A stretch of 64,000 nt of DNA, taken from a virus. The position numbers and the translations under genes are program-made. Within the stretch, counting starts at the first letter, position 1, and each line of letters starts with the position of its first letter. Below are positions 1 through 59,180 of the stretch, piece by piece. The stretch covers positions 1 to 64,000 of the IMG/VR virus record IMGVR_UViG_3300023179_008905. One strand, given 5' to 3'. The notes under the pieces were generated by a model. That model did no database searches and had not been told where the DNA came from. It worked only from the letters and a program-made list of their open reading frames with translations.

Positions 1-366
1 CCTGGAGTTAAATTTATTAAAGAGTGGATGCCGATATTTGTAGAGCTACCTGATGAAATAACTGTTGAAAAGGGTGATCTTTATGATTCGCCTGAATTAA
101 GAAATGAAGTTATTGAAGCGATAACCCGTGCGTTTGATGCTAACATGGCAAAAGATAAAGAGCTTGTAAATGATTTTATAGACTCATTAAAATATAAAAA
201 CAGCTATTCGCACTCGAGTGAGAAAAAAGAAGGTGAAGGTACAGGTGAAGAGCCTAACATTGAAGAATATCCTGAAGACGATGATGTAACAGGGGAGCTA
301 AGATCTATGGGTGCAATTGGCGGCCGTCGTGGTTATGACGCGGGTGGTTTTAGTTACGGGGACTAA
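1..366 (+). CDS. C-terminal part of an unidentified phage protein (truncated by window start)
   Basis: The reading frame is open from base 1 to a TAA at 364-366, so the ATG at 28 is probably internal and the gene begins outside the window. The visible part has a mixed helix-forming region, then a strongly acidic low-complexity stretch (about residues 65-90 counted from the Met at 28), and ends in a Gly/Arg/Tyr-rich tail. Its 3' end overlaps queC by 17 bp in convergent orientation. I do not recognise the family. An acidic tail occurs in ssDNA-binding proteins and many virion proteins, but nothing here decides the function. Confidence 0.6.
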   Translation, partial: PGVKFIKEWMPIFVELPDEITVEKGDLYDSPELRNEVIEAITRAFDANMAKDKELVNDFIDSLKYKNSYSHSSEKKEGEGTGEEPNIEEYPEDDDVTGELRSMGAIGGRRGYDAGGFSYGD

Positions 367-1099
367 TCTCTTTACACTTAAACTTTTCCCAAGGTATTGA
401 AATTTTATACTTTAAAGGGTCTATAACCCTCGAATCTATAAAGCCTTTTATTCTCAAAGAGCACGCAGTACATTCACCGCATGCTTGCTCTTCTCCCTCA
501 TAACAAGTCCAGGTTTGACTAAAATTAACCCCGAGCTTTATACCGAGTTTTACAATCTCTTCTTTAGATTTATCAATTAAAGGGGCTTGAACTACAATTC
601 TATTTCTTCTGTTAAGAGCGGATACTTTATTGATTTGTTCGAGAAATTCTTCACTACCATCCCAAAACCCAGCAACGCTATCGGCTTGGGCAGCTCCATG
701 AAAAACTGTGCTAGCACCGTAGTTTTCTGCTATAGCAAGTGAGATACTGAGTAACATTAAGTTTCTATACGGAACATAGTTAACTGTCTGCGGATCCCCC
801 ATTACATCCTTTGCCTTAGCAACTGCAATTTTGTTATTTAGAAGTGAAGAGACCTGACATATATCTCTAAAAAACGGTAATTTTATGTGTAAACTATCGA
901 CCGGCATATCAAGCGTTTCAATCTGAAATGAAGCGCAGTTTACTTCTTTATCACGGTGCTTTTGACCGTAGTCGTAGTTAACCGTAATTATTTTATCATA
1001 CCTACTAGCGGCTAAATGTAGTAGGACGGTACTGTCCATTCCCCCAGAAATGGGGACTACAGCTTTACTCGTGAGGCTCTTCTTCGCCTTGCACTTCAT
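350..1099 (-). CDS. queC: 7-cyano-7-deazaguanine (preQ0) synthase QueC
   Basis: QueC converts 7-carboxy-7-deazaguanine to preQ0 using ATP and ammonia. The N-terminus carries the PP-loop ATP pyrophosphatase motif SGGMDST (about residues 18-24). The C-terminal third has the zinc-binding cysteines in CYEGEEQACGECTAC. The length of 249 aa is near the family norm of about 220-240. The gene overlaps the end of uvsX by 35 bp, so it is probably co-transcribed and perhaps translationally coupled with it. The other pathway genes (folE, queD, queE, queF) and a DpdA-type transglycosylase are elsewhere in the window, which points to DNA modification rather than tRNA queuosine. Family assignment is firm; the DNA role is inferred. 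Confidence 0.95.
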   Translation of the reverse strand: MKCKAKKSLTSKAVVPISGGMDSTVLLHLAASRYDKIITVNYDYGQKHRDKEVNCASFQIETLDMPVDSLHIKLPFFRDICQVSSLLNNKIAVAKAKDVMGDPQTVNYVPYRNLMLLSISLAIAENYGASTVFHGAAQADSVAGFWDGSEEFLEQINKVSALNRRNRIVVQAPLIDKSKEEIVKLGIKLGVNFSQTWTCYEGEEQACGECTACSLRIKGFIDSRVIDPLKYKISIPWEKFKCKEISPRN

Positions 1100-20065: not shown

Positions 20066-20719
20066 TTAGATCAATTTTCTATTTTGTGCAAATTCAATAA
20101 ACTTATAAAACTCGTTTCTTGAGTTATCCTTATCATCTAAGAAAGCACCAGACATTCTAGCTGTACGCATGGTAGAATCATGTCTAATACCACGATTCGA
20201 ACAACAGGTATGAGCTGCTTCAATCATTACAGCTACACCCTTATTCTTTAAGCATACCTCATCAATATATTTGTGAATTTGCATTGTTAGGTTTTCTTGA
20301 ACTTGAGGGCGACGGGCAAACCAATCAACAATACGATTTAGCTTACTTAAACCAATAACCTTACCGTCTTTAGCAGGAATATAAGCAACATGCGCAAACC
20401 CCATAAAGGGCGCATGATGATGAGAGCAAAGAGATGTTAATTTAATATTTGTTTGTGCGACTATACCGTCATACTTATCTACATTATCGAATGCAGTAAC
20501 TTTAGGAGGAGTGCTATAACAGCCCCATGCAAAATCTTCAACAAAAGCCTTTGCTACCCGGTGTGGTGTATTATCACTATTTGGATCGTTTCTCCAATCA
20601 TAACCTAAAGCATCCATGTACGCTTCGTACGCTTTAGCTGCTCGTTCTATAATTTGTTCTCTTTCTTCTTGAGTATGAGGGTGATTGTGATTTGCAAAAG
20701 CTAATTTCTTTTTAAACAT
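20066..20719 (-). CDS. folE: GTP cyclohydrolase I FolE
   Basis: FolE converts GTP to dihydroneopterin triphosphate, the first step of both folate and 7-deazaguanine synthesis. Conserved segments are NTPHRVAKAF (near residue 50), TSLCSHHHAPF with zinc-binding Cys and His (near 97), GLSKLNRIVDWFARRPQVQE (near 125) and HTCCSNRGI (near 170). The 217-aa length is typical. With queD, queE, queC and queF in the same window, it most likely feeds base modification. It has its own sigma70-like promoter. Confidence 0.96.
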   Translation of the reverse strand: MFKKKLAFANHNHPHTQEEREQIIERAAKAYEAYMDALGYDWRNDPNSDNTPHRVAKAFVEDFAWGCYSTPPKVTAFDNVDKYDGIVAQTNIKLTSLCSHHHAPFMGFAHVAYIPAKDGKVIGLSKLNRIVDWFARRPQVQENLTMQIHKYIDEVCLKNKGVAVMIEAAHTCCSNRGIRHDSTMRTARMSGAFLDDKDNSRNEFYKFIEFAQNRKLI

Positions 20720-24036: not shown

Positions 24037-24750
24037 ATGAGATATAAAAGTACTAAGATCTTAGAATTAGGTAGTTGTGCATTTAGACAATGGAGAGCTG
24101 TACATAGTCATTGTAAGTTTATTCATGGCTATAGATTAGTTGCTAAGTTTTGGTTTAGTTGTGATTCTTTAGATGATAAGAATTGGGTAGTAGATTTTGG
24201 AGGGTTAGATGAACTTAAGAAAATTTTACAAAAACAATTTGATCATACATTATGTGTTTCAGAAGATGATCCTTTGTTAGAAGGATTTAAATCATTACAT
24301 ACTGCTGGTGGTTGTGATTTAAGAATTATGCCTAAGGGAGTAGGTATTGAAAGGACAGCTGAATGGTGTTTAAATGTTTCTGATGCGCATGTAAGACAGT
24401 TAACAAATAATCGTTGTTGGGTTGAAAAAGTTGAAGTATGGGAACATGAAAAAAATTCAGCTATAGCAATTGCAGAAAATATTAATCATAATCATGTTAA
24501 TTTGAGCAATGCATTTAATGTTACAAATAATGTTACAACTGGTAATTCTGAAACTGTTGCAACAACATTGCAACCACCTATTAATCAGGTAAGAACGTTT
24601 TTAGACGACGTACAGCAAGAAACCGGTGTTAATGTTGCTAATGTTTTAAAACAAGTTCCTCAGCAGCAAGTACCGAGACCAGCTAATGTAGGTAATAAGA
24701 CGTCTTCAGGTTTTTCGAATTTATTTGGCGGTACAAGCTGGGGAATGTAA
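24037..24750 (+). CDS. queD: 6-carboxytetrahydropterin synthase QueD, long C-terminal tail
   Basis: QueD turns dihydroneopterin triphosphate into 6-carboxytetrahydropterin. The N-terminal 135 residues show HSHCKFIHGYR (residues 23-33, with the catalytic-type Cys), NWVVDFGGL (near 49), FDHTLCV (near 68) and a GIERTAEWC segment (near 107). The usual HGH zinc motif reads HGY; a second His in HSH may compensate. Residues 150-237 are an extra Asn/Thr/Gln-rich tail ending in a Gly/Ser/Phe-rich piece, absent from ordinary QueD (about 120-140 aa). It lies near queE and has its own promoter. Confidence 0.88.
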   Translation: MRYKSTKILELGSCAFRQWRAVHSHCKFIHGYRLVAKFWFSCDSLDDKNWVVDFGGLDELKKILQKQFDHTLCVSEDDPLLEGFKSLHTAGGCDLRIMPKGVGIERTAEWCLNVSDAHVRQLTNNRCWVEKVEVWEHEKNSAIAIAENINHNHVNLSNAFNVTNNVTTGNSETVATTLQPPINQVRTFLDDVQQETGVNVANVLKQVPQQQVPRPANVGNKTSSGFSNLFGGTSWGM

Positions 24751-25542: not shown

Positions 25543-26286
25543 ATGAGTGATTCGTATATTTTTTTAAGTGACGATAAGTTATTTTATACTCTAGAAGGTG
25601 AAGGTGAGTATGTAGGATATCCTTCTGTTTTTATGCGTTTATCAATGTGTAATTTAACGTGTAAAGGATTTGCTTCATCTGATTCACCTCACGGTTGCGA
25701 TAGTTTTGTCAGCTGGTCAGTAAAAAACAGAATGACGTTTGATGAGGTGTTTGAATATATGGCACAAAATAGTTATAACTGCCATTTAAAAGATGGTGCT
25801 ATATGGAAAATTACTGGTGGCGAACCACTTATTCAACAAAAAACATTATTAGAGCTTGTTGATCAATTTATTTTCCGCTTTGGGTTTGTACCGAGAATAG
25901 ACTTTGAAACAAATGCTACAATTATACCTGACCATCAGTGGGTAGATTGGAAAGCAACATTTACAACTTCACCTAAGCTTTCAAACAACGGAGATCCGAT
26001 TGAAAAGAGATATAAGCCTGAAGTATTAAAATGGCATGTAAAACATAATTCGGGCTTTAAATTTGTTATTAATAATGAAAACGATTTTAATGAAGTTTTA
26101 GAAAAATATATACTTGAGCCGAATATTAAAGTTCCCCGGGAAAGAGTATGGTTAATGCCTTGTTGTGGTAGTAGAGAAGAGCATATTGAAAAGGCGTCTG
26201 TTATTGCCGAGTTATGTAAAAAACATAAGCTTAAATTTAGTCCAAGATTACAACTTGTTATTTGGAATAAAGCTCTTAAAGTATAA
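25543..26286 (+). CDS. queE: 7-carboxy-7-deazaguanine synthase QueE (radical SAM), variant cluster motif
   Basis: QueE is the radical SAM enzyme that makes the 7-deazaguanine ring. TLEGEGEYVGYPSVFMRL (residues 16-33) is typical of the family, as are ITGGEPLIQQ (near 89) and FETNAT (near 123). The cysteines near residues 36-52 read C-NLT-C, then 11 residues, then C. That is CX3CX11C rather than the classic CX3CX2C. The start is the ATG behind a good promoter. The gene is followed after one base by a P-loop kinase. Identity is firm; the cluster geometry is unusual. Confidence 0.92.
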   Translation: MSDSYIFLSDDKLFYTLEGEGEYVGYPSVFMRLSMCNLTCKGFASSDSPHGCDSFVSWSVKNRMTFDEVFEYMAQNSYNCHLKDGAIWKITGGEPLIQQKTLLELVDQFIFRFGFVPRIDFETNATIIPDHQWVDWKATFTTSPKLSNNGDPIEKRYKPEVLKWHVKHNSGFKFVINNENDFNEVLEKYILEPNIKVPRERVWLMPCCGSREEHIEKASVIAELCKKHKLKFSPRLQLVIWNKALKV

Positions 26287-35164: not shown

Positions 35165-36039
35165 AAGAAATTTCTGCTTATCATCTGAGTAAAGGTAACA
35201 AACTTTACGGTCAATGTCTTACTGCTGTTGGCTGGGTTAACGGTACAGTACCAGAATTAACAGAAGAACAGGGTATAGTTGAGCTATCTATGGCTGATGT
35301 TATGGCAGGTGGGATTGTTACGGGCGCAGCACTAGCTGGTCAGCGACCTATTTACGTAGTACGCTATCAAGGATTTCAATGGTTTAATGCACCTATTATA
35401 GCTAATTATGCTGGTAAGAGTAAGGACATTTGGGGGATATCTTGTCCAGTGTTTATTAGATCTATTGCTATGGAAGGCGGTATAGGACCGGTTGCCGGTT
35501 CATCACACCATGGAATTTATTATCGTATGCCGGGTGTAAAGATAGCTTCACCTATGACACCTTTTGAGTATGAAGAAGTGTACAATTCGTTTATGCTAGA
35601 CGATATGCCTTACTATGTAAGTGAGCATAGAAAAAGTTATGAGTGCGATTATCGTTTAGAAGATATTGAATATGAAAATCCGGATATTTGTTTATTCCCG
35701 TTTTCTATTACTAGATTTGAATCAGTTAAAGCATCACAATCGCTAGCTAAACAAGGCATAAAAGTCAATGTATACCACCAGCTTTGGATTAACCCCTTAT
35801 TAATATCTGAGAACCAAAAAGATCAATTAAAGAAATCAAAATACGGCGGTATTGTTTTAGATGACGATTATCCGAATGGTATAGCCAAACAAGTTGCTTA
35901 TGAGTTGATGCTTGAGACAAACAAGCCAGTTAGAACTTTATGTATTAAAGAAAAGACAGCCGGCTTTCAGCCTGAGGACGACAACATGCCACCTACATCT
36001 ATTGAAATTGAAGAATATATACTTAAATTACTAAAATAA
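35137..36039 (+). CDS. thiamine-diphosphate dehydrogenase E1 beta-like subunit
   Basis: A 300-aa protein like E1 beta. It has TEEQGIVELSMADVMAGGIVTGAALAG (near residue 45), FIRSIAMEGGIGPVAGSSHH (near 106) and a transketolase C-domain-like region (about 170-290). Together with the alpha gene it should form a two-subunit ThDP enzyme that transfers or decarboxylates a 2-oxo acid. Directly followed by the DegT-family gene. Confidence 0.87.
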   Translation: MAKNLRDTIKEISAYHLSKGNKLYGQCLTAVGWVNGTVPELTEEQGIVELSMADVMAGGIVTGAALAGQRPIYVVRYQGFQWFNAPIIANYAGKSKDIWGISCPVFIRSIAMEGGIGPVAGSSHHGIYYRMPGVKIASPMTPFEYEEVYNSFMLDDMPYYVSEHRKSYECDYRLEDIEYENPDICLFPFSITRFESVKASQSLAKQGIKVNVYHQLWINPLLISENQKDQLKKSKYGGIVLDDDYPNGIAKQVAYELMLETNKPVRTLCIKEKTAGFQPEDDNMPPTSIEIEEYILKLLK

Positions 36040-37259
36040 TGAGCGCTGAAAAGTATTTGTTGATGGATGATAATATAACTCGTAATGATATTAACGAAGT
36101 TATAAAATTCCTACAACAAGACCCTTTGCCGCAGCTAACAAACGGACCAAAGGTACGAGAGTTTGAGCAAGCTTGGTCTAAGTGGTTAGGGGTAAAATAT
36201 AGCGTTTTTGTCAATTCAGGTACTATTGCAAATCAGCTAACTATGCTATTAGTACGCTATCTAAATAATAATAAAAACTTTTCACCACGAGTTATTGTTC
36301 CCCCGCTTACATGGGTTTCCGATATTGCATCAACATTGCAAAATGGTATCGAGCCTGTATTTTGTGATATAAATTTCTCTAACCTTAGCTTTGATAATAA
36401 AAAGCTTTTGCAAAAAATAGAAAAAATAAAACAAGATACTGGTGAATACCCAGCAGCAATTTTTCTTACACATATTTTAGGGCTTAATGGACTTACTGAT
36501 TATATTATTAACCTTTGTAAAGATAATAATATTTTGCTTATTGAAGATGTCTGTGAATCGCATGGAACGACTTTTAAAGGCCATAAAGTCGGTACTTTTG
36601 GAGATGTAAGTAATTTTAGTTTTTATTTTGCACATCACATGTCAACCATAGAAGGCGGTATTATTTGTACAAACAATGAACATTATTACAATTTGTTAAG
36701 AGCATTTAGATCTCATGGTATGGTGCGTGAATGTGATAGTTTAGAATTTAAAAATGATATTATTAAACAAAATCCTCAATTAAATTCTGATTTTATTTTT
36801 CTTGCGCCAGCTTTTAATGCTCGTAGTACAGAAATTAATGCTGTGCTAGGATTATCACAACTCAAAAAACTAGATAATAATAATGAGATTAGAAGACAAA
36901 ATTTTGATTATTTTATTTCTAATTTGGATGGTGAAAAATATATTAAAACATTTGACATTACAGGACAATGTAATTACGCATTTATTGTAATTCTTAAAAA
37001 CGGCAATATTGAAAAGCGTAATAAAGTAGAAGCTGTTTTAAAACAGAACAATATTGAATTTCGTAGAGGTCTTTCCGGGGGCGGCAGTCAAATTCAACAA
37101 CCATATTTAAGAAATTTTTATAAAAATTATTCTCAAATAAATTTATATGAATTCGACGTTATGAATTATATTCATGATCATTCCTGGTATATTGGTAATT
37201 ATCCTACACTTAAGAAAGAAAAAATAGATAGTCTTCTAAGCATCTTAAACGGTGTTTAA
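36039..37259 (+). CDS. DegT/DnrJ-family PLP enzyme with His in place of the PLP lysine (dehydratase type)
   Basis: A 406-aa sugar aminotransferase-fold protein. Visible blocks are FVNSGTIANQL (near residue 57), LLIEDVCESHGT (near 168) and SFYFAHHMSTIEGG (near 190-203). In aminotransferases the last block carries the lysine that binds PLP; here a His takes that place. That change is known in the ColD and RfbH/E1 3-dehydratases, which remove the C3 hydroxyl of 4-keto-6-deoxyhexoses. Its start shares one base with the E1 beta stop. Prediction: formation of a 3,6-dideoxy sugar. Confidence 0.85.
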   Translation: MSAEKYLLMDDNITRNDINEVIKFLQQDPLPQLTNGPKVREFEQAWSKWLGVKYSVFVNSGTIANQLTMLLVRYLNNNKNFSPRVIVPPLTWVSDIASTLQNGIEPVFCDINFSNLSFDNKKLLQKIEKIKQDTGEYPAAIFLTHILGLNGLTDYIINLCKDNNILLIEDVCESHGTTFKGHKVGTFGDVSNFSFYFAHHMSTIEGGIICTNNEHYYNLLRAFRSHGMVRECDSLEFKNDIIKQNPQLNSDFIFLAPAFNARSTEINAVLGLSQLKKLDNNNEIRRQNFDYFISNLDGEKYIKTFDITGQCNYAFIVILKNGNIEKRNKVEAVLKQNNIEFRRGLSGGGSQIQQPYLRNFYKNYSQINLYEFDVMNYIHDHSWYIGNYPTLKKEKIDSLLSILNGV

Positions 37260-54820: not shown

Positions 54821-55735
54821 TTACTGTCTTACCGTCTTAGTAAAATACTTAAACTCGTCTATTAAAGCCGTATCTAATAAGCTATAGTTACTAGCTCTTG
54901 TTGGATTAATATCGATACCACCACGTCTTACATATAGACAACTTACTACAAGCTCTTCTGGTTTAAACAATCTAAACAACCGCATATAAATTGTCTCACA
55001 AATCTCTTCATGAAAATGACATTCATCTCTAAATGAGACAATATACTGTAAAAGAGATGTCTGATTAATCTCATACTTTCCTTTATAATGAATATAAACA
55101 TCGCCCCAATCAGGTTGTGAAGTTACCCTACAATTACTTTTTAATAAAGCAGAATGAAATCTTTGTACTCTAGATTCAGGGATCTTTATTGCAGATAAAA
55201 TAGAAGGATCCTCAGTATATGATTTAGATTGTATCATTGTAACATCAATATTATTTTCTAATGTAGGGTAGTCTTTATTCGAAAACACCGGGGGATAATA
55301 CAAATCATCCGATACTGCTGCAGCAGATCTTACATAGACCTTCACATCTGTTTCCAAAAGATTAGATAGATCTCTTGCAATTGTATTTTGCAATTCATTT
55401 AAAACTTGAATCATATTACCTTTAAATACTTGCATGTTAAAAGAATTCATATATAGCTTAATAGATTTTGATTCAACTATATAATGGTTTTTACAAGGAT
55501 AAACAATTTTAGCTATAGCGGCTATAGGCATTCCTTCTGCAGTCAGGCACGATACTTCATATGCATTCCAAATATCATAACCACCAAACGGGGCGTTTTC
55601 ATCAGTTATATCTAAATGCTTTCTATTATTAATTCTTGGTTCACGGACTAACAGAGAAGGGTCGTAAGTCGACTTATAACCAGTTACCTTACCTAAATGC
55701 TTTGAAATGTTACTATTATCTAATACCTTGTTCAT
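54821..55735 (-). CDS. queF: NADPH-dependent preQ0 reductase QueF
   Basis: QueF reduces preQ0 to preQ1. It is the long (E. coli-like) form. ESKSIKLYMNSFN lies in the N-terminal half (near residue 86), the catalytic Cys is in LKSNCRVTSQPDWGD (near 202), and FHEEICETIY and YVRRGGIDINPTR follow (near 240-285). I chose the ATG at 55735, which overlaps the kinase stop by 20 bp; an ATG at 55771 is also in frame. QueF implies that preQ1, not only preQ0, is made. It is the last gene of the dpdA operon. Confidence 0.93.
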   Translation of the reverse strand: MNKVLDNSNISKHLGKVTGYKSTYDPSLLVREPRINNRKHLDITDENAPFGGYDIWNAYEVSCLTAEGMPIAAIAKIVYPCKNHYIVESKSIKLYMNSFNMQVFKGNMIQVLNELQNTIARDLSNLLETDVKVYVRSAAAVSDDLYYPPVFSNKDYPTLENNIDVTMIQSKSYTEDPSILSAIKIPESRVQRFHSALLKSNCRVTSQPDWGDVYIHYKGKYEINQTSLLQYIVSFRDECHFHEEICETIYMRLFRLFKPEELVVSCLYVRRGGIDINPTRASNYSLLDTALIDEFKYFTKTVRQ

Positions 55736-56300
55736 GTAGTTTAATTTTAATCTGTTCCATTCGTTCTTCAACTGTTCCTTTTAAAAACACTACTCTTTCT
55801 CTCCATGGGTGTTGATTAAGATAATAATTTTCATACTTATCGATAATTGCATCTCTAAACTCTATATCAATACTCCTCTCACCATCGCTAACTAAATTAA
55901 TCTCATGAGGATTCGGATAAAATATAATATCATACTTAGTAAAAAAATTATGCCAATAATTTTTCGCTTGATCGTATGATAATCTTGAAACCCGTCCCTT
56001 TTCAAAAAAGTATTCTGTATACACTAACCCATCTAGTAAACATCTATCATGTACAGTACCCTTACACCATCCACCCATACTACCGCATGTAAACAAATTC
56101 TTTAGTTCCTCGTTTATTATTAAAAGCTGTGTTACATCACTTGCACCCTCTTCATTAATCGGTACGTTACATTCATCTCTTATTTTCCTAGTAACTTCGT
56201 TAATATAAAAGAATTTATCAAATATACCTCCACTGCTTCTCATTGTCTTAAGCAATGTCGTTTTACCAGAGCACTGAGGACCTGTAAACGTAATATTCAT
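55716..56300 (-). CDS. P-loop nucleotide kinase-like protein (AAA_28 type)
   Basis: A 194-aa protein with Walker A GPQCSGKTT at residues 6-14 and a kinase-type VHDRCLLDGLVYTEYFF (near 88). It resembles NadR- or thymidylate-kinase-like enzymes and the 26288 protein next to queE. ATGA links it to the small upstream gene. It may phosphorylate a nucleoside related to the base modification; substrate unknown. Confidence 0.75.
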   Translation of the reverse strand: MNITFTGPQCSGKTTLLKTMRSSGGIFDKFFYINEVTRKIRDECNVPINEEGASDVTQLLIINEELKNLFTCGSMGGWCKGTVHDRCLLDGLVYTEYFFEKGRVSRLSYDQAKNYWHNFFTKYDIIFYPNPHEINLVSDGERSIDIEFRDAIIDKYENYYLNQHPWRERVVFLKGTVEERMEQIKIKLHEQGIR

Positions 56301-56484: not shown

Positions 56485-56832
56485 CTATTTACACCACTTT
56501 TTTCTTTTCACAATTTCAGCAATTATACAGTATACCGATGTATCACTAAATGCATCAAAGATAGGCTCATTAGCAGATTCAAACGTCTTCTTACGCAATA
56601 CTAAATTAATTAAACGCTGAATTTTATCGTTAAGTCGAACTACGATTGCAGAAATAGAGGCAATAATATCTTCTTTCTTGTGTAAATCAGATCCCAGGCT
56701 TATGTTGTGCGGCCCGTAATCAAATTGCTTCTTACAGAATGTTTCGTATTGCTCTTTTTGAATCTTTTTAAATTCCTCGCAAGTCTCAGGATACGTAGAC
56801 TCTACACTTTTAATATAATCTTCCGGGTTCAA
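56485..56832 (-). CDS. DUF1599-like (nucleotide modification associated) protein
   Basis: A 115-aa helical protein with the pattern FCKKQFDYGPHNISLG (near residue 32), then VVRLNDKIQRLINLV (near 64) and FDAFSDTSVYCIIAEIV near the end. It matches DUF1599, a family noted near nucleotide-modification genes. Its stop is 35 bases before the next gene, and its start overlaps the GMP reductase end by 4 bp. Confidence 0.72.
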   Translation of the reverse strand: MNPEDYIKSVESTYPETCEEFKKIQKEQYETFCKKQFDYGPHNISLGSDLHKKEDIIASISAIVVRLNDKIQRLINLVLRKKTFESANEPIFDAFSDTSVYCIIAEIVKRKKWCK

Positions 56833-57800
56833 ATTCTTACTCCGTAACCAATCTTATTTAAATTAAGAGCATTTAAATTGCAACCCCCAGCATAGCTGAT
56901 TGCGCTCTGAAGATCTTGAGTTATTTCTAATAGCTTTTCATCGTAAGTAAATGAATCGGTTTCCATAAGCTTCATTGTACCTTCTATGTTCTTTTTATCA
57001 ATCTTATTATGTATACTAGCAGAACCGTAATACTGTTTATACCGTCTCCCGTTAGTATCTTTTACAACCGGTGCAGGGCTATCCGTACAAGCAGCAAATA
57101 TAGATCCGCACATAACCATACTAGCCCCAGCGACTAGCGCTTTAGCTATATCACCGTTGCAGCGAACTCCACCGTCTGCAATAATAGGTACATCAATATC
57201 TGAATTATAATTATTTGCACACTCCATAACGCAGCTAAACATAGGATATGTAAACCCGGTTTTGTCTTTAGTAGTACATGCATGACCACCACCGATACCA
57301 ACTTTAACTGCATCAGCACCTGCAAGGGCAAGATATTCAACACCTTTACGTGTAGCTACATTACCAGCTATTATCTTTGTTTCAGGTAGTTTATTTTTAA
57401 TAAACTTTACTTGGTCAGCAACTTTAGCATGATGCCCATGAGCCACATCAATTGTAATAAAATTTACTCTTAATTTATGTCGAGATATATTGTCAATTAA
57501 CGCTTTATCTTTTTCCTGTATCCCTACACTTATAGATACATAATTGAAAAAAGCTTCATTTGCATCTCTTACAAACGCAAAAATATCGTGATCAAACCGA
57601 TGCATAACATAAAAGTAATATTTCGAATCTAACGCTTGACAAATATCAAAATCTATGCAGCATTTCATATTTGCTGGGATAACTGGAAGACGAAAATTTT
57701 TATCTAAAAACTTTACCTCTGTACTAATTTCTGCCCTCGTCTTAACCGAATTAAAATTAGGCTTAAGAAAAACGTTTTCGTAATGCAGAGAAATGTCCAT
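56829..57800 (-). CDS. guaC: GMP reductase (GuaC-like)
   Basis: A 323-aa TIM-barrel protein without CBS domains. VKVGIGGGHACTTKDKTGFTYP (near residue 165) holds the active-site Cys. IIADGGVRCNGDIAKALVAGA (near 208) and YYGSASIHNKIDKKNIEG (near 255), then a final DLQSAISYAGG, match Bacillus-type GuaC better than IMP dehydrogenase. The enzyme turns GMP into IMP. In this operon it might recycle guanine displaced by DpdA into adenine nucleotides; that is my inference. Confidence 0.85.
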   Translation of the reverse strand: MDISLHYENVFLKPNFNSVKTRAEISTEVKFLDKNFRLPVIPANMKCCIDFDICQALDSKYYFYVMHRFDHDIFAFVRDANEAFFNYVSISVGIQEKDKALIDNISRHKLRVNFITIDVAHGHHAKVADQVKFIKNKLPETKIIAGNVATRKGVEYLALAGADAVKVGIGGGHACTTKDKTGFTYPMFSCVMECANNYNSDIDVPIIADGGVRCNGDIAKALVAGASMVMCGSIFAACTDSPAPVVKDTNGRRYKQYYGSASIHNKIDKKNIEGTMKLMETDSFTYDEKLLEITQDLQSAISYAGGCNLNALNLNKIGYGVRI

Positions 57801-57801
57801 A

Positions 57802-58371
57802 CTAGCGATTTAAAATATTATATGCTTTAAAAAAGCTTTTCCACAAATCAAATGCAACGTCATGTAAAATATTATAGACTTCATTTAATGTTTTACTCTC
57901 TATCGATACCCCTTGACTCATCATAATTTCACCCTCATCAACTTCAGGCACTACTTTATGAATAACGCAACCAGCTAATTTATAGCCATTTACAAACGCT
58001 CTCTCCTGAGGATTAAACCCTTTTAGAGACGGGTACTTGTCAATAAGCCCGGGGTGTAGATTATATATTTCATATTTTTCACATATTTCTTTTGGAACAA
58101 TACGTAAATAGCCGTGTAAAGTTATAACTGGATTTTTAAATTTAGATAATACTTCTGTATAATCTTCTAAAGAAGGTTTTAGAGGTAACATATACCATAT
58201 AGTTTGATTGAGTTTATGCTCTCTAAAAGTAGTTGTACGAAGCAAATCTTTATTTACATTATCCGTTGTAATTTTATTAGTAACGATAGCATCAGGATAA
58301 ACTTCTAAGGCTTTACAGAGATTATTAATTTCTGTACCGGTCTGTGAAAAAAACGCTACCCAAGGTCTCAT
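57802..58371 (-). CDS. formyltransferase-fold protein, candidate 7-deazaguanine formyltransferase
   Basis: A 189-aa protein of the PurN/Fmt formyltransferase fold. VITLHGYLRIVPKEICEKYEIYNLHPGLIDKYPS (near residues 82-115) contains the Asn-x-His-Pro active-site motif NLHPG, and AGCVIHKVVPEVDEGEIM (near 133) is also conserved. It overlaps dpdA by 4 bp. A formyltransferase (called DpdN, as I recall) has been linked to 7-(formylamino)methyl-7-deazaguanine in phage DNA. Its position next to dpdA and queF makes that role likely here. Confidence 0.82.
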   Translation of the reverse strand: MRPWVAFFSQTGTEINNLCKALEVYPDAIVTNKITTDNVNKDLLRTTTFREHKLNQTIWYMLPLKPSLEDYTEVLSKFKNPVITLHGYLRIVPKEICEKYEIYNLHPGLIDKYPSLKGFNPQERAFVNGYKLAGCVIHKVVPEVDEGEIMMSQGVSIESKTLNEVYNILHDVAFDLWKSFFKAYNILNR

Positions 58372-59180
58372 CTATATAAAATGCGCTTAAACATTTTAAC
58401 ATTATAATTTAAAATTTCCAATTGATCTGGTGTAAATTGATGCTCTATTAAATCTGCTAATTTTGTCTTAGGTTTAGTCTGTAGACCGTATTCTGCATCA
58501 TAACGCATATTATGAATAGCTGCGACTACAGGGTTACTCGTATCACAACTTACAATATTATATACATTTTTATCAACATAAAATCTAAACTCTTTTGCAA
58601 GAGAGCAGCCTAATAAATGATGAGGCTTATTCCATTCCCATAACCCTGATTCAATTAAATCTGTAATAAATCTCTGTCGTCCTGAACAAAACCTTTCTAG
58701 CTCAGTATTACCCTCACCTATTGTTTGATAATAACTAAAATCAAAACTTATAGCTACCATGTCAGCATCAAATGACATAAAACGATAACAGTTTTTTAAT
58801 TCTTGCCATGTCTTACCCTGTACTGCTCCAATAGCTTTAGTCTGAAATGATGATTTTAAATCCTTAGCTTTATCTCTAAAGCTTAAAAAACTCACCATCG
58901 TTTCTTGCGAATTTTCCAAAACATCTGGAACAATAAACATACTAGGCTCAAGATCTTTTGCGGCTTGATAAAACATTTGCGGATCAAAAGCTTTTCCAAG
59001 CTCAAATATTGAATTATCGAGCAATACTTCTCTGTTATATGTATTTTTGGAGGCTTTAAAAAAATTATAATATTCTGGATATTTTTGAAAAAGATGAACT
59101 AATGCATAGTCAAAATCATTATATTTTCTTGATTGTTCTAATAATGAAATAGGAGATTCATGAGATACTTTCAATAGCAT
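58368..59180 (-). CDS. dpdA: DpdA-like DNA guanine transglycosylase
   Basis: A 270-aa protein of the tRNA-guanine transglycosylase superfamily in its DNA-acting DpdA form. It has VLLDNSIFELGKAF (near residue 51, the substrate-pocket Asp), GAVQGKTWQEL (near 118), HLLGCSLAKEFRFY (near 187) and VSCDTSNPVVAAIHN (near 205, the candidate nucleophile Asp). DpdA exchanges guanine in DNA for preQ0-type bases. It leads the modification operon behind a strong promoter. Whether it accepts preQ0, preQ1 or both is not visible. Confidence 0.85.
   Translation of the reverse strand: MLLKVSHESPISLLEQSRKYNDFDYALVHLFQKYPEYYNFFKASKNTYNREVLLDNSIFELGKAFDPQMFYQAAKDLEPSMFIVPDVLENSQETMVSFLSFRDKAKDLKSSFQTKAIGAVQGKTWQELKNCYRFMSFDADMVAISFDFSYYQTIGEGNTELERFCSGRQRFITDLIESGLWEWNKPHHLLGCSLAKEFRFYVDKNVYNIVSCDTSNPVVAAIHNMRYDAEYGLQTKPKTKLADLIEHQFTPDQLEILNYNVKMFKRILYR

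Follow-up and report, generated by a model that had tools for sequence, protein, structure and literature searches.

The window, by which we mean the whole stretch of 64,000 nucleotides analysed here (part of a 76,130-base IMG/VR virus record), encodes a small formyltransferase directly downstream of a DNA guanine transglycosylase gene, dpdA. This protein is very probably a DpdN-type enzyme, which would transfer the formyl group of 10-formyl-tetrahydrofolate onto preQ1 or dPreQ1, so that the predicted product in viral DNA is 7-(formylamino)methyl-7-deazaguanine. The chemistry appears to have been described before, in one other phage group; the new points are the wide distribution of the formyltransferase gene and its tight linkage. 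On this reading, a protein that databases annotate as a purine enzyme would in fact modify DNA, and its product can be tested.

The formyltransferase ORF is intact, with an ATG start and zero internal stops (Table 1). A preliminary description of this DNA had noted a PurN-fold protein with an NLHPG motif, a 4-bp overlap with dpdA and an operon shared with queF, and all of this was confirmed by the ORF, by Pfam and by the sequence itself. The sole Pfam domain of the protein is PF00551 (Formyl_trans_N; E=1.6e-16, 61 bits, with the cutoff at 26.1). Relatives with 46–80% identity were found by tblastn and pattern searches at the same position in 37 viral loci, and a profile search brought the number of viral stretches encoding a relative to 561. 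Moreover, dN/dS against the closest relative, estimated roughly by NG86, was about 0.10, indicating purifying selection. Clearly, with such conservation of position, occurrence and sequence, the gene is not a chance reading frame.

Table 1. Genes of the predicted DNA-modification pathway in the window, with the basis of each assignment.
Feature	Position	Strand	Basis
queC, preQ0 synthase	350..1099	-	TIGR00364, above cutoff
folE, GTP cyclohydrolase I	20066..20719	-	NCBIfam FolE, 171 bits, under the 202-bit cutoff
queD-like, 6-carboxytetrahydropterin synthase	24037..24750	+	weak: TIGR03367, 33.6 bits, under cutoff
queE-like, radical SAM 7-carboxy-7-deazaguanine synthase	25543..26286	+	hits to several QueE models at 36-47 bits, each below cutoff
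queF, two-domain NADPH-dependent preQ0 nitrile reductase (to preQ1)	54821..55771	-	PF14819 + PF14489
P-loop nucleoside/nucleotide-kinase-like protein	55716..56300	-	PF13521
115-aa ORF, kept in closer relatives	56485..56832	-	phrog_1485
GMP-reductase-like gene	56829..57800	-	NCBIfam GMP reductase as best model, 327 bits (cutoff 344)
DpdN-like formyltransferase, 189 aa	57802..58371	-	PF00551, alignments, AlphaFold model against PurN/GART structures
overlap (4 bp) of dpdA stop and formyltransferase start	58368..58371	-	ATGA in sequence
dpdA, DNA guanine transglycosylase, Campylobacter CP220/immuto type	58368..59180	-	homology, invariant Asp, DTSNP motifs

The genes on the minus strand are ordered dpdA, formyltransferase, GMP-reductase-like gene, 115-aa ORF, P-loop kinase and queF. 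The Pfam support for DpdA is weak (DUF6610, 19 bits, under the cutoff). The protein is 43–45% identical to the annotated DNA guanine transglycosylase of Flavobacterium phage immuto and to Campylobacter CP220-type proteins, and in the alignment with these CP220/immuto-type homologues the invariant Asp columns and the DTSNP motif are kept. We take the CP220/immuto type to be the DpdA3 group. QueF scored 266 bits against TIGR03138, under its cutoff of 293, and retains residues C190, D197, H229 and E230 of E. coli QueF as well as the NADPH motif ESKSxKLYxNSFN. As the catalytic Cys, the Asp and the NADPH motif are all kept, the product of this QueF should be preQ1, the aminomethyl group of which is a primary amine. 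The presence of queC, folE and the weaker queD-like and queE-like genes in the window, together with queF, makes the GTP-to-preQ1 gene set complete; the queD-like protein is 39% identical to QueD of immuto. Judging from gene content, FolE, QueD, QueE and QueC would convert GTP to preQ0, and QueF, given also its catalytic residues, would convert preQ0 to preQ1. The GMP-reductase-like gene is optional and mobile in the module, as some other loci have it upstream of dpdA and in others it was not found; as a speculation, its product may feed or recycle guanine nucleotides freed by base exchange. The virus had been labelled T4-like, which fits with the T4-type capsid/head, portal, UvsX, gp46/47-type and polymerase families present in the window.

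The AlphaFold model of the formyltransferase (mean pLDDT 90) matched best, among PDB structures, PurN/GART folds over 171–175 residues, with Foldseek E down to 3e-11 for PurN/GAR transformylase structures and Z up to 19.7 at 2.0 Å over 171 residues (VIA). The structures of PurU, Fmt and sugar formyltransferases ranked just after them. The catalytic triad N104, H106 and D145 corresponds to N106, H108 and D144 of E. coli PurN, and the Asn-His-Asp triad is kept in all 25 DpdN-like sequences aligned. Thus, the fold and the triad are common to the window protein and PurN. Since PurN is also the nearest HMM, and since the immuto homologue bears a purine-enzyme name in GenBank, the protein could be thought of as a PurN carried by the phage, which would formylate GAR and so raise purine synthesis in the host. 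A real PurN-type gene does exist in cyanophage P-SSM2, and in the window a GMP-reductase-like gene adjoins the formyltransferase gene. However, the P-SSM2 protein scored 148 bits against PF00551, whereas the match of the window protein (about 60 bits) covers the C-terminal part alone, and the NCBIfam PurN equivalog scored the window protein at 57.2 bits against a cutoff of 150.1. The two residue positions that presumably contact the ribose and phosphate of GAR, N13 and E173 of GAR transformylase, are nearly or fully invariant within PurN, but in the DpdN-like sequences they are replaced: the position of E173 is occupied by A or S in 25/25, and that of N13 by Glu in 24 and by Ala in the remaining one. 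In a maximum-likelihood tree of 56 sequences, the DpdN-like sequences formed a clade of their own (support 100/100) that excludes PurN, PurU, Fmt and ArnA. Placement inside PurN had been named in advance as the outcome that would speak against a role in DNA modification, and the phylogeny gave the opposite. Additionally, the gene is linked to dpdA and queF, neither of which is required for making purines. On the grounds of the tree, the residues, the equivalog score and this linkage we rejected a PurN role in purine metabolism, and we regard GAR formylation as highly improbable.

Two other members of the same fold family were considered. A methionyl-tRNA formyltransferase was rejected, as Fmt is a two-domain protein of about 310 aa with a C-terminal tRNA-binding domain, compared with 189 aa here, and the window protein lies outside the Fmt clade. 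The protein could also act on folates or on formylated preQ1 as a deformylase or a regulator, rather than as a transferase, because formyltetrahydrofolate deformylases (PurU) have the same fold and triad. We consider this extremely improbable, as the protein falls outside the PurU clade (the support of which is 100/98), lacks the ACT domain and is only 189 aa long.

As a DpdN-type transferase, the enzyme would use 10-formyl-tetrahydrofolate and its Asn-His-Asp triad to formylate the aminomethyl nitrogen of preQ1. Formylation would be the last tailoring step, and could take place either on free preQ1 before its insertion or on dPreQ1 already in DNA. DpdA, as expected from its family, would swap guanine in DNA for the modified base. 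Viral DNA would then contain 2'-deoxy-7-(formylamino)methyl-7-deazaguanosine, which would shield it from host nucleases. The search for DpdA residues that covary with the formyltransferase revealed three columns that differ between the two main groups of loci, none of which holds in other clades. With no DpdA position following the formyltransferase in all clades, a changed DpdA substrate gains no support, weak as this argument is.

To place the gene among its relatives, 277 loci with DpdA relatives were collected and reduced to 142 non-redundant ones at 95% identity; this sample is enriched for relatives of the window, and it is within it that the formyltransferase gene was present in 96/142 loci. 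In all 96 the gene lay on the strand of dpdA, and in 78 of them at most 60 nt from it. The gene states could be read in 133 non-redundant loci: 88 had the formyltransferase and QueF, 41 had QueF alone, and 4 had neither, while the formyltransferase without QueF was seen in none (0/133). Two apparent exceptions lacking QueF were resolved by a search of the whole records, in which queF was located just past the fetched stretch. The dependence on QueF-made preQ1 that had been predicted is therefore borne out, as every locus with the gene that has enough sequence to judge also has QueF. On the DpdA tree the formyltransferase state requires 6 changes and the absence of QueF 4. As the nesting counts share ancestry, and as the tree offers only 3 independent pairs for the co-gain of the formyltransferase and QueF, a co-gain test has no power and cannot reach significance. 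Taken together, the gene patterns predict that many viruses of this DpdA lineage, and not just one Flavobacterium phage, add formylation as an optional final step. Pairs of viruses with and without the formyltransferase would then be predicted to carry two different DNA bases made by otherwise similar operons.

The same linkage bears on whether the amine that is formylated belongs to preQ1 at all. The enzyme might formylate another amine, for instance that of an amino sugar, and occupy its place in the operon for unrelated reasons. Among the sugar-type genes of the phage is a 406-aa ORF (36039-37259) that looks aminotransferase-like by eye, and a bacterial relative of the formyltransferase gene, described below, adjoins a gene for a DegT aminotransferase. 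Against this, the gene lies next to dpdA or overlaps it, ahead of queF, both in the window and in its relatives, and it keeps with queF when away from dpdA: in the two loci of the apparent exceptions above, dpdA was 6–7 kb off and the formyltransferase gene stayed near queF, with the kinase gene read directly between the two in one case. An amine other than that of preQ1 as the substrate in these viruses is thus very unlikely.

Bacterial genomes yielded just two relatives, one in a cyanobacterial MAG and one in a Rhodobacteraceae MAG; in these MAGs the genomes' own PurN genes scored 177–180 bits against PF00551, and the DpdN-like genes 31–39 bits. The cyanobacterial relative, on a Microcoleus contig (L282:1752-5537), is 43% identical to the window protein, and has as neighbours genes for a radical SAM protein, a thymidylate-kinase-like protein, the DegT aminotransferase and a phosphoribosyltransferase. 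DpdA of the CP220/immuto type was not detected in the Microcoleus genome bin. This other gene context, along with a bin without detectable DpdA of that type, suggests that enzymes of the clade may act on other amines, so that the substrate range in the DpdN-like clade may be wider than preQ1. The contig of the Rhodobacteraceae bin (L283:701-8946) is compact and carries queE, a phosphoribosyltransferase-like ORF, queD, folE, dpdA, the formyltransferase gene, the kinase gene, queF and queC. A search of plasmids for relatives of the formyltransferase gave weak matches alone, and the named ones were PurU, PurN or members of the formyltransferase family.

Formylated preQ1 appears to have a precedent in phages. 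Cui et al. 2023 are said to have introduced the DpdA3 subfamily, to have reported 2'-deoxy-7-(formylamino)methyl-7-deazaguanine, and to have given the name DpdN to a predicted formyltransferase of phages with DpdA and QueF, its predicted product being fdPreQ1. Among six cultured modified-base phages that we searched whole, the formyltransferase was present only in Flavobacterium phage immuto; by exclusion within this set, the immuto protein is likely to be the published DpdN. The protein of immuto (vB_FspM_immuto_2-6A/3-5A/13-6C; QQO91984.1) is the nearest named homologue of the window protein, with 46% identity over 96% of its length. The order of genes in immuto, dpdA, (a small ORF), formyltransferase, kinase and queF, is like that in the window. 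In contrast, the window operon has an extra GMP-reductase-like gene, which is not annotated in the immuto operon, and the 115-aa ORF, and immuto has queD, queE and folE directly upstream of the operon. As the formyltransferase occurs only in immuto among the cultured phages searched, and as the gene order is common to both, the window gene is classed here as a probable DpdN. The preliminary description had expected an extension of the known chemistry to a T4-like phage with a full preQ1 pathway; this extension is modest, since immuto already shows the same operon order. The GenBank name of the immuto formyltransferase, phosphoribosylglycinamide formyltransferase, is misleading, as is the name 'GTP cyclohydrolase' given to QueF in several RefSeq phage records (NC_055915.1, NC_005083.2).

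Other cultured phages have preQ1-type modification with QueF. In Vibrio phage 6E35.1a, 15% of dG carries a modification whose mass fits dPreQ1 (PMC12028318). This phage has folE, queD, queC, queF and a transglycosylase gene in a single cluster, similar in content to the gene set of the window; QueF is present, and a PF00551 protein was not found in a search of its whole genome. In Streptococcus phage Dp-1, dPreQ1 was identified by mass spectrometry (PMC6884629), and the search of the whole record likewise revealed QueF but did not find a PF00551 protein. As negative controls, both phages agree with the predicted role of the formyltransferase. Cellulophaga phage phi38:2 was rejected as an alternative source of DpdN, as it encodes a short QueF and a CxxCxxCC-domain protein, and a PF00551 protein was not found when it was searched whole. 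The gene of the CxxCxxCC-domain protein (L359:8952-9605) lies between the genes of the short QueF and a putative transglycosylase, and it is possible that its product is an alternative tailoring enzyme for preQ1.

Another partner of DpdA in these loci was the P-loop kinase, found in 120 of the 122 non-redundant loci for which 3 kb or more of downstream sequence was available, with or without QueF. In Campylobacter phage CP220 the same DpdA type is followed by the same kinase, as in the window, and a search of the whole record found neither QueF nor the formyltransferase. The AlphaFold model of the kinase, built from seven sequences, matched deoxynucleoside kinases and NadR in Foldseek. We know of no published pathway step that would explain a P-loop kinase. 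We propose only tentatively, as an idea we find somewhat doubtful, that a large and mostly uncultured group of viruses with this DpdA type replaces most or all of its guanines by formylated preQ1, and that the uncharacterised P-loop kinase is the constant second component of the module. The kinase was noted at 55716-56300 of the window and at L052:10813-11355.
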